This document shows, piece by piece, positions 9,081-12,153 of a stretch of DNA of 40,596 bases. The DNA lies in contig REBL01000143.1 in NCBI GenBank assembly GCA_007692755.1, positions 1 through 40,596 of the forward strand, read 5' to 3'. The DNA is from Nodularia sp. (in: cyanobacteria) (lineage in GTDB: Bacteria; Cyanobacteriota; Cyanobacteriia; Cyanobacteriales; Nostocaceae). A model generated the notes under the pieces. It was given only the letters and a program-made list of their open reading frames with translations. It was not told where the DNA came from and did no database searches. Numbering within the stretch: the first letter of the stretch is position 1; each line of letters starts with the position of its first letter. The translations under genes were made by a program, and so were the position numbers.

Positions 9081-9404
9081 TTATTTGTTGACAGACAGCT
9101 CTTTTTGATGGTTAACGAGCGCCAAATATTCATTGCGAGTTCCATCTAATCGGTAGTGGTCGCAAATTTGGCAGAGTTTGAAAATATCTGATCTGCTAAA
9201 TAGTTTTTGATGCTCAATTTTGTTGTCATTCCTCCACCGCCAGAATGTTGTCCGATCAATACGTCGATTGCTATCGGGCCATCTTCGTTGGGATAAAAAC
9301 TCTATCAACTCATCCTCATGCAGAAAATAGTCTTTTGGCAACTTAATAAGTTTTTCTCTTAATTCTGTTAGCGATATAAGTGGATCTAGCTTCGATAGTT
9401 TCAT
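9081..9404 (-). CDS. Small putative HTH DNA-binding protein
   Basis: 107 residues, not recognised to family level. The middle (about 50-85) reads RIDRTTFWRWRNDNKIEHQKLFSRSDIFKLCQI, resembling a MerR- or excisionase-like winged-helix segment, where a helix with aromatic and arginine residues is followed by a wing. The N-terminus is amphipathic helical and acidic (LPKDYFLHEDELIEFL). Composition is rich in Lys, Arg and Glu. It is isolated, with 500 bp of AT-rich DNA upstream and a possible remnant downstream, which is the setting of accessory or horizontally acquired DNA. The DNA-binding role is inferred from pattern only. Confidence 0.5.
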   Translation of the reverse strand: MKLSKLDPLISLTELREKLIKLPKDYFLHEDELIEFLSQRRWPDSNRRIDRTTFWRWRNDNKIEHQKLFSRSDIFKLCQICDHYRLDGTRNEYLALVNHQKELSVNK

Positions 9405-9903: not shown

Positions 9904-11121
9904 CTATGTAGGCTTATGATCTAAACGATTTGCTTGCTCTAGGGCTGCTTTTTCTTTGGCTCTTTTGGCATAAGATTGTAATTGGGCGCGATCGCAACCT
10001 GTAAGAATAATCAAATTTTCCCAACTCATTCCCCGCATTAACATTTCTACACACCAAGTATGTTGGGTTTGCGCGATCGCTGGCGGTTCTCCTTGAGGCG
10101 TTAACAATCCCTCTGTCCATGCTTGCCAATGTTGCAATAAATCTGATTCGGCGATCGCTTCACCTGTTTGGTTGAGAAACATCGCCGGTTGATCATCTTT
10201 ACGATTCTTCAGCCATTTAATTAAGGGGTTGTTGCTGTAAGAACCATAGCGTTTGCCCAGAATCCACTGATTAACAGGGACTTGGCGGCGAAATTCTGGG
10301 GCGGTAATTTGCAGAAAGTGTCCAGAAGCATCACAGATTTGCTGGTTTTGCTGCAAGCTGACAATTTCTTTCAAAGATAAGCCAGCCCCAAATAATACAT
10401 AAGCCAAGGCATAATCTTGTGTTCCCAACTTCTTAGCTTGTTGCAAAATTTGGTGAACTAAACCCACAGGTAAATCTGCCACTTCCTGCACATTGCCCTC
10501 AACTGTGGCTGTTGTTCCTGAATATGACATCGCACCGTGTAAAAACAACTCGACTAAATTCTCCAGAAAATCATCCCTATCCACCCACAATTCGTTAAAT
10601 TCACTAGTAAATTCAATGACCGCATACCCCAAAATCATGCCATTGAGCAAACTAGCTAATTTTTCTGCTGGAAGATAGGTATTTAAATTTCCTTGCTGGA
10701 TCACAGTGGCTAAATACTCAGCTACGTAGCGGTTAGCTTCAGTTAACCCATGTCCCAAAGCCCGGCGATTTTCCATCGGGTATTGGTTAGCCTCACCCAC
10801 CACAGACCGCACTAACTCCGGTATCCGTTCTAAAGCGTCTAAGCTTTCACTTGCATAATCTTTGAGTGCCTGATATATGTCACCAGAAGGAGTCGCCCTC
10901 TGCACCAGCGACTCTCCTAAATTCTTGAAAGCTGCGGATTCTTCCAGCACAGACAATAACAGTCCATGCTTGTTACCAAAATTCCGGAATAAGGTAACTT
11001 CGTTGACTTCGGCTTTTTCCGAGATTTGGCGGGTTGTGGTGGCGCTGACTCCCTGAACTGTAAATAATTCTAGTGCTGATTGAATTAGACGTTGACGAGC
11101 TGAAATAGATTGAGATGTCAT
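9904..11121 (-). CDS. TetR/AcrR regulator fused to a degenerate tyrosine-recombinase-like domain
   Basis: 405 residues from ATG 11121. An upstream in-frame ATG at 11148 would overlap the operator, so the inner start is preferred. Residues about 9-60 form a TetR HTH (IQSALELFTVQGVSATTTRQISEKAEVNEVTLFRNFGNKHGLL), followed by a TetR ligand/dimer domain to about 200. The last 190 residues have the layout of a tyrosine recombinase catalytic fold: YVLFGAGLSLKEIVSL (Box I position), RRQVPV (beta2-3), FLNQTGEAI, HTWCVEMLMRGMSWENLIILTGC (Box II and GH position), then QSYAKRA. The Box I Arg is Ser, the HxxR Arg is Gln and the GH His is Cys. Only the terminal Tyr remains, so it should be catalytically dead. 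It is divergent from desC and probably regulates it and itself. Confidence 0.85.
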   Translation of the reverse strand: MTSQSISARQRLIQSALELFTVQGVSATTTRQISEKAEVNEVTLFRNFGNKHGLLLSVLEESAAFKNLGESLVQRATPSGDIYQALKDYASESLDALERIPELVRSVVGEANQYPMENRRALGHGLTEANRYVAEYLATVIQQGNLNTYLPAEKLASLLNGMILGYAVIEFTSEFNELWVDRDDFLENLVELFLHGAMSYSGTTATVEGNVQEVADLPVGLVHQILQQAKKLGTQDYALAYVLFGAGLSLKEIVSLQQNQQICDASGHFLQITAPEFRRQVPVNQWILGKRYGSYSNNPLIKWLKNRKDDQPAMFLNQTGEAIAESDLLQHWQAWTEGLLTPQGEPPAIAQTQHTWCVEMLMRGMSWENLIILTGCDRAQLQSYAKRAKEKAALEQANRLDHKPT

Positions 11122-11131
11122 AAAAAATAAT

Positions 11132-11146
11132 GCAAGTGGTACTTGC
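11132..11146. promoter_or_regulatory. Palindromic operator 1 for the TetR-fusion regulator
   Basis: GCAAGTGGTACTTGC is a perfect 6-3-6 inverted repeat. It lies 11 bases upstream of the preferred regulator start, in its 5' leader. It matches a second site 47 bp away centre to centre. TetR proteins usually bind such palindromes in divergent promoters. Confidence 0.75.
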
Positions 11147-11178
11147 ATAATAATGAGCGGACTGCTAACATTATAAAT

Positions 11179-11193
11179 GTAAGTGGCACTTGC
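11179..11193. promoter_or_regulatory. Palindromic operator 2 in the desC/tetR divergent promoter
   Basis: GTAAGTGGCACTTGC differs from operator 1 at two bases and keeps 5 of 6 inverted-repeat pairs. It directly follows TATAAA (11172-11177), a candidate -10 for desC. It also lies just upstream of a perfect TATAAT on the minus strand (11170-11175), a candidate -10 for the regulator. Binding here should affect both promoters. Confidence 0.7.
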
Positions 11194-11295
11194 TTTTTTT
11201 TACTGTAACTAACTGCTGTGCAGAGTAGGCAAAATCCGACTGGGGTTGCACCAAGAATTAGCAAATCGCTTGATCATTTATTAACAGGAATTTTT

Positions 11296-12153
11296 ATGAC
11301 TGCGAAGTTTCTGAACTTAACTCCTGATGCCGGGAATTTACCTCCTCTGAGGTGGATAAACGTGGTATTTTTTGGTGCATTTCATGCCTTAGCTCTTTTA
11401 GCTCCTTGGTTTTTCTCTTGGCCAGCATTAGGTGTGCTGGTGTTTCTCCACTGGTTATTCGGGAGTATCGGTATTTGCTTAGGATATCATCGACTATTGA
11501 GCCATAAAAGTTTTCAAGTACCTAAGTGGTTAGAATATGCGATCGCCACGATTGGAGCCTTAGCTCTACAAGGAGGGCCAATTTTTTGGGTAGGTGGACA
11601 CCGCCAGCATCACGCCCACACAGAAGATGTCAACCTAGATCCATACTCCGCACAGCGAGGATTTTGGTGGAGTCATATGTTGTGGATTCTTTACCCCCGG
11701 TCGGAATTTTTTGATTATGAATCTTATCAAAAATATGCGCCTGATCTAGCACGAGACCCTTACCATCGCTGGCTGGATCGCTACTTCCTGCTTTTACAAA
11801 TTCCCCTCGGTTTGCTGTTGTACGTTATGGGCGGTTGGTCTTTCGTAATTTACGGTACATTTGTCAGGTCTGTCTTACTGTGGCATTCCACTTGGTTTGT
11901 CAACTCAGCATCACACCTGTGGGGTTATCGAACCTTTGCGGCTGATGATGGCGCACGTAACCTGTGGTGGGTATCGCTGGTAACTTATGGAGAAGGCTGG
12001 CACAATAACCATCACACTTATCCTCACATGGCGAAATCGGGATTGTCTTGGTGGGAGATTGATATGACTTGGTGGAGTATTAAAGTTTTGCAGACTTTGG
12101 GTTTAGCCAAAAAGGTAATTTCTGTTCCCCCTCACAGCGCCGCGCTCAAATAA
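11296..12153 (+). CDS. desC: Acyl-lipid Delta9-type fatty acid desaturase
   Basis: 285 residues from ATG 11296, chosen because AGGAA lies 5 bases upstream. A GTG at 11218 is in frame but gives an unlikely 26-residue extension. The three His boxes of the DesC/stearoyl desaturase family are present: HRLLSH at 65-70, HRQHH at 102-106 and HNNHH at 236-240. They coordinate a di-iron centre. Hydrophobic segments flank the first two boxes. In cyanobacteria DesC introduces the first double bond into lipid-bound acyl chains using ferredoxin, in thylakoid and plasma membranes, and is temperature-linked. The substrate preference (sn-1 or sn-2 form) cannot be read here. It is divergent from the TetR-fusion gene and convergent with the acyl-ACP synthetase gene. 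Confidence 0.93.
   Translation: MTAKFLNLTPDAGNLPPLRWINVVFFGAFHALALLAPWFFSWPALGVLVFLHWLFGSIGICLGYHRLLSHKSFQVPKWLEYAIATIGALALQGGPIFWVGGHRQHHAHTEDVNLDPYSAQRGFWWSHMLWILYPRSEFFDYESYQKYAPDLARDPYHRWLDRYFLLLQIPLGLLLYVMGGWSFVIYGTFVRSVLLWHSTWFVNSASHLWGYRTFAADDGARNLWWVSLVTYGEGWHNNHHTYPHMAKSGLSWWEIDMTWWSIKVLQTLGLAKKVISVPPHSAALK

Follow-up and report, generated by a model that had tools for sequence, protein, structure and literature searches.

We have analysed a stretch of 40,596 nucleotides from Nodularia sp. (in: cyanobacteria), which is called the window below. On its minus strand, an open reading frame of 414 amino acids at 9904..11148 (ORF list of the window) encodes a TetR/recombinase-like fusion protein, and a fatty-acid desaturase gene, which we take to be DesC-like judging by its His boxes, lies divergently beside it, with 174 bp separating their start codons. 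In the window the desaturase gene is followed by a gene for an AMP-binding ligase of the acyl-CoA synthetase type; this ligase gene was found at no locus besides the window's own, though many loci offer only 1.5 kb of flank. A 107-aa ORF (9081-9404, minus strand) lies downstream of the fusion gene and is present also in the loci L007-L009 and L036-L038; it has no Pfam match at E 0.001. The window's ORF list holds no ORF of at least 80 aa on the plus strand inside the fusion gene. The genes and protein parts are as follows.

9904..11121 (-): fusion gene of TetR and a putatively dead recombinase, 405 aa from the second ATG
10534..11121 (-): TetR part with the DNA-binding HTH and the ligand/dimer core, residues 10-205 of the 414-aa ORF, matched by TetR_N
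10477..10533 (-): variable linker, residues 206-224
9907..10476 (-): domain of predicted tyrosine-recombinase fold without the catalytic set, residues 225-414
11296..12153 (+): fatty-acid desaturase, predicted target (PF00487, E 6.4e-19)

Translation likely starts at the second ATG (11121), which the initial annotation also gave, and not at the upstream ATG. This is favoured because the in-frame codons from the upstream ATG spell the candidate operator B described below, and because many relatives measure 399-409 aa. That is, the upstream frame at 11122-11148 (MQVPLALFF...) runs through the operator, and the 414-aa database records probably begin the protein 9 residues too early. Residues are nevertheless numbered here on the 414-residue ORF, with the catalytic positions placed by alignment to XerA.

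The anatomy of the fusion protein is nearly certain. The N-terminal ~200 residues match TetR_N well above the Pfam cut-off (whole protein, E 4.2e-11, 42.9 bits against a cut-off of 24), and were rightly called TetR before. For the second half, the Phage_integrase match of the whole window protein (E 8e-4, 19.6 bits) stays under the Pfam cut-off of 27.1, and the C-terminal half alone reaches 22.3 bits (E 1.2e-4). Of 26 C-terminal halves from the family, one of them the window's, 25 give a Phage_integrase match with E no higher than 1 (lowest 2e-12), families other than Phage_integrase match at most 3, and a precomputed PF00589 hit is present in many relatives. In addition, NCBIfam gives weak XerC (E 5.7e-4) and XerD (E 0.025) matches on the second half, and a profile of the 26 halves reaches XerA (PDB 4a8e) at E 1.1e-9 over positions 3-181. 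The second half is thus predicted to take the catalytic-domain fold of tyrosine recombinases, and the earlier proposal of such a C-terminal domain is confirmed at the level of these matches. A full-length structure model has a pTM of 0.49 and leaves the domain arrangement open. A core-binding domain is absent from the N terminus, where Pfam finds the TetR half. A known TetR effector domain, which the initial annotation had named as the finding that would speak against it, was looked for and rejected: beyond chance, residues 225-414 give only integrase/Xer matches (among the best 25 of 27 NCBIfam rows), and the sole other match in the whole-protein scans, CPSase_L_D3 at E 0.084, is at chance level. 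Automated annotation has seen both domains as well, since the relative P0243 is named 'AcrR family transcriptional regulator/site-specific recombinase XerD'.

The fusion is genuine and has been conserved in many genera of cyanobacteria. Both halves are found in at least 41 of 386 genomes of the phylum (listed rows, own genome included, one with an in-frame stop). In a set of 5.8 billion proteins, 2262 of the 7998 candidates scored match at E 1e-3 or better; the 120 matches listed span the whole query at 75-92% identity, and the nearest named organism among them is Nodularia. At 173 loci with the TetR part, counted with repeats of one gene, 154 carry the fusion in one frame, 14 are TetR-only, and 5 are split by a frame break. 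The set analysed consists of 70 fusions and 9 TetR-only proteins, all less than 85% identical; left out were the 5 split genes, L002 and L003, which are further TetR genes from the window's genome, the truncated L096, and rows at or above 85% identity. Mean pairwise identity among the 70 fusions is 71% for the HTH, 54% for the recombinase-like domain and 50% for the TetR core, and the gap between the two profile matches varies from 8 to 67 aa in 68 fusions. Between the window and 7 relatives, dN/dS is 0.11-0.27 for the domain, 0.04-0.09 for the TetR part and 0.31-1.23 for the linker; that is, the recombinase-like domain is under purifying selection.

The catalytic set, on the other hand, has been lost across the whole fusion family. 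At the catalytic positions, the window has the following residues.

10375..10377 (-): Ser258 replacing the Box I Arg (Arg in 2 of 70 fusions)
10063..10074 (-): Ala359-Gln360-Thr361-Gln362 replacing HxxR (His in 0 of 70, Arg in 13 of 70)
9994..9996 (-): Cys385 replacing the GH His/Trp (Trp 24, Cys 19, His 1 of 70)
9970..9972 (-): Tyr393 at the nucleophile position, retained (Tyr 60, Phe 6, Leu 3, Cys 1 of 70)

The three replacements noticed earlier (Ser258, Gln362 and Cys385 for the Box I Arg, the HxxR Arg and the GH His) are correct, and two further losses can be added, as the HxxR His is Ala359 and the beta-hairpin has no Lys. From the set R-K-H-R-H/W-Y, the window keeps the Tyr alone. Over the 70 non-redundant fusions, the Box I position is Ser in 47, the HxxR Arg position is Gln in 49, and the HxxR His position is acidic in 42 (Glu 37, Asp 5). 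The hairpin Lys, scored as any Lys at residues 279-287, occurs in 4 and is missing in 66. No fusion has the complete set. The fullest one, L032, has both Arg, the Trp and the Tyr without His and Lys, while L183 keeps both Arg and has lost the Tyr. The domain has invariant residues of its own in 70/70, namely Trp341, Trp365, Asn293 and Pro308. The recombinase activity itself has presumably been lost along with these residues. Judged by its sequence, the molecule is a TetR repressor, and falls outside the tyrosine recombinases by both catalytic set and core-binding domain.

The palindrome pair and the divergent desaturase gene are central features of the locus that were absent from the initial annotation. 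The desaturase gene is divergent from the regulator gene at 69 of 70 fusion loci, and at all 10 TetR-only loci checked (the 9 kept rows and L155). The exception is L161 (genome G402), where the desaturase gene lies on the same strand; this diverged fusion has no palindrome pair, and perhaps it is a copy that has moved and acts on a different target. By location, then, the fusion is a TetR protein tied to a desaturase gene as in the DesT/FabR/MadR class, and it would regulate this gene. The 174 bp between the start codons contain two copies of TGCAAGTnnnACTTGCA, and the following elements can be placed there.

11131..11147 (no strand): candidate operator B, TGCAAGT-nnn-ACTTGCA, 17 bp, 14/14 letters, just before the tetR start; putative binding site
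11163..11168 (-): CTARCA-like element, here TTAGCA, conserved, ~21 bp before B (by eye)
11178..11194 (no strand): candidate operator A, 12/14 letters, on the desaturase side, 47 bp start to start from B; putative binding site
11201..11206 (+): TACTGT next to operator A, a possible -10 box for the desaturase promoter (by eye)

With a site threshold of at least 11/14 letters, the TGCAAGTnnnACTTGCA pair is present at 68 of 70 fusion loci, 42-85 bp apart from start to start. The spacing is 44-48 bp in 60 of the 68 (27 at 47 bp, 22 at 46 bp), and a pair 38-90 bp apart never arises in 1580 dinucleotide-shuffled versions of these 700-bp regions, which cover both fusion and TetR-only loci. The two remaining fusions are L161, with no site at the threshold, and L199, with one palindrome and a weak second site. 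The 15-bp core of B occurs without mismatch once in its own 5.56-Mb genome, at the fusion gene, and the 17-mer occurs without mismatch once in each of 3 related genomes, again at the fusion gene. A single perfect site per genome at this gene looks like a local switch, and a wider regulon finds no support among the perfect sites, which in the 4 genomes lie only there. Imperfect sites, with 1-2 mismatches, are dispersed and exceed a reversed-pattern control by about 2 to 4 fold. In a related genome, a further palindrome, TGTAAGTATGACTTACA, is seen at G284:C1:320989-321005, ~3 kb from the palindrome pair.

With 10.5 bp per helical turn, a spacing of 46-47 bp amounts to ~4.5 turns. Two bound dimers would then sit on opposite faces of the DNA, and ~30 bp lie between the palindromes. 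Linker length does not correlate with operator spacing (rho -0.15, p 0.22), so that a linker tuned to this spacing was dropped; the spacing could be set by the promoter layout alone. We have also set aside the CTARCA-like element as a binding site of the recombinase relic, because it stays ~21 bp from B when the spacing between the palindromes is altered (e.g., L032, L172, L185 and L194, with L102 as exception), and because it is found by eye in 8 of 9 TetR-only upstream regions as well. It is probably a promoter element.

Considering that some relatives carry the TetR part without the domain, palindrome number can be compared between the two types. Eight TetR-only relatives are usable; L158 was omitted, since its contig stops directly behind the TetR part. 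Six of them have one palindrome (L113, L160, L162, L166, L168 and L169), L167 has a second, weaker one, and L112 has two, as does its near relative L155 (by eye). Three changes are required to account for the TetR-only rows in a tree of the TetR part, for which the bootstrap had not settled and in which L169 has a long branch. These rows are placed as the f27 clade (place unresolved), as L169 inside the f28 fusions, and as L112/L155 inside the f18 fusions. The fork joining L169 to the f28 fusions has a support of 98/69, and the nearest row, L195, has two palindromes, so this lineage has probably lost both the domain and the second palindrome. When the three independent pairs were drawn in 200 random pairings, a mean of 1.8 went in the same direction and 1.2 showed no difference (median p 0.5). 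Overall, the association between the domain and a second operator is suggestive, not proof. As a separate observation, L112 and L155 (genomes G011 and G543) have lost the domain and kept both palindromes, which makes them a natural domain-deletion pair. No separate copy of the domain was found in G011 at E 0.01, and G332 and G177 give only weak domain matches (E 2-3e-7) in frames of 336-337 residues. In the f27 rows L113, L114, L162, L166, L167 and L168, but not L160, TTGACA stands where the fusions have the right arm of operator A.

Based on the above analyses, we propose that the fusion is a repressor of the desaturase gene, and that its dead recombinase domain couples TetR dimers on the two operators; we consider this reading, and the coupling role within it, about evenly balanced between right and wrong. 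TetR dimers on A and B would block the divergent promoters of both genes, and the recombinase relic would couple the bound dimers, either by holding the ~30 bp of DNA that separate them or through a domain-domain contact with the neighbouring relic. Core sites gripped by recombinase domains measure about 28-34 bp, a length to which the gap between the operators comes close, and recombinases exchange C-terminal helices. The TetR core, the usual sensor in TetR proteins, would sense an acyl compound, as DesT does, and thereby release the protein from the operators. The initial annotation had suggested a second DNA-binding module, perhaps bridging two operators; the two candidate operators support this in part, and the bridging itself is what we infer. 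A recombinase-like grip on DNA is weakened by the acidic residues in the catalytic pocket and by the near-neutral window domain (pI 7.1; family median 8.0, range 4.8-9.6). A tight coupling geometry is disfavoured by the linker and spacing data and by L112/L155, and coupling as such by L161, which lacks the pair and the divergent desaturase, and by L199.

The same features can be read differently. The TetR part alone may repress from the two operators, with the relic serving off the DNA, where it would offer a partner protein a docking site or provide an extra surface for oligomerisation. This is a possible but less probable explanation, and it agrees with the acidic residue that replaces the catalytic His in 42/70, with the near-neutral charge of the window domain, and with the fact that the domain can be lost, as TetR-only relatives stand beside the same desaturase gene and two of their groups are nested among fusions; a XerD catalytic domain is also known with the FtsK gamma domain (PDB 5dcf). 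It leaves unexplained why the pair accompanies 68/70 fusions while 6/8 TetR-only relatives have one palindrome, though the independent events are few. Alternatively, the relic could be a sensor of a ligand or of membrane or temperature state that releases the TetR dimers, with the operator pair as a plain feature of the divergent promoter. The polar or acidic residues now in the catalytic pocket and the family-specific W341, W365, N293 and P308 would fit such a role, but the TetR core, which is usually the sensor, has been kept at 50% mean identity, and we know of no recombinase-fold sensor; we therefore regard this as rather unlikely.

Much further down stands a domain that still cuts or nicks DNA, as a recombinase or topoisomerase under TetR targeting. 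The Tyr kept in 60/70, and the sets of L032 (both Arg, Trp and Tyr) and L183 (both Arg), are what speaks for it, yet the HxxR His is found in 0/70, the hairpin Lys in 4/70, the Tyr is gone in 10/70 including L183, and L032 has neither His nor Lys. On the residues at the catalytic positions we reject a still-active recombinase, and we give the whole idea very little chance. Even less credit goes to an error of annotation or assembly, or to a remnant in decay: a frame break splits 5/173 loci and a few matches contain a stop codon, but 154/173 loci (repeats included) have both halves in one frame, the dN/dS of the domain is 0.11-0.27, and the conservation across many genera refutes it.

Among the known systems, by analogy the fusion would work most like MrpR (YopR), the master repressor of the Bacillus prophage SPbeta, which, according to the available part of its report, has a recombinase fold with lost activity and keeps a Tyr, Tyr304, that its authors found important for DNA binding (PMC10516654). 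Both have a recombinase-fold CAT domain without the residues for activity, and both keep the Tyr without the rest. In the same available part, MrpR has its own core-binding domain and keeps the Lys, whereas the cyanobacterial fusion has no such domain and 66/70 fusions lack the hairpin Lys (PMC10516654). MrpR is described there as a phage repressor and with no TetR part, while ours is a TetR-borne host gene beside a lipid gene. SroF of phi3T is grouped with MrpR among the closest systems, and no paper on it was found in the literature searched. XerA, XerC and XerD differ from the fusion, which has no complete catalytic set, no core-binding domain and an N-terminal TetR. Crypton-derived recombinase domains have been domesticated in animals (KCTD1, ZMYM2 and others), where they were co-opted in other host proteins; they are of different origin and have no known TetR link. 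To our knowledge, DesT, FabR and MadR have no comparable extra C-terminal domain. Like the fusion, these three are TetR proteins tied to a fatty-acid desaturase gene, and they bind acyl-CoAs, as far as the available part of the source goes (PMC8872791). An acyl-CoA or acyl-ACP may be the ligand of the fusion as well, by analogy from its neighbourhood only.

The initial annotation knew of no described regulator of this kind. This has to be narrowed, as MrpR is a recombinase-fold repressor in the available part of its report (PMC10516654). The TetR fusion itself is not described in the literature searched, that is, titles and abstract openings, mostly on neighbouring questions, with bioRxiv preprints and most subscription papers outside; nor is a regulator for this divergent promoter named in them. 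Because of the palindrome pair, a single purified protein and short DNA fragments would suffice to test the idea directly.

If the proposed reading is true, dead recombinases would have been recruited not only as phage repressors but also into a conserved regulator of the host. The fusion also shows a module swap, in which TetR occupies the place of the recombinase's core-binding domain. Desaturase control is central to the cold acclimation of cyanobacteria. We tentatively suggest, as a scenario that is somewhat more doubtful than the coupling itself, that a site-specific recombinase was stripped of its chemistry early in the history of cyanobacteria and then served a host repressor as its coupling arm. 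Its domains, clamped on the ~30 bp between two operators 4.5 helical turns apart or joined across them, would lock the TetR dimers together, and the resulting switch would set membrane lipid desaturation in many cyanobacteria.
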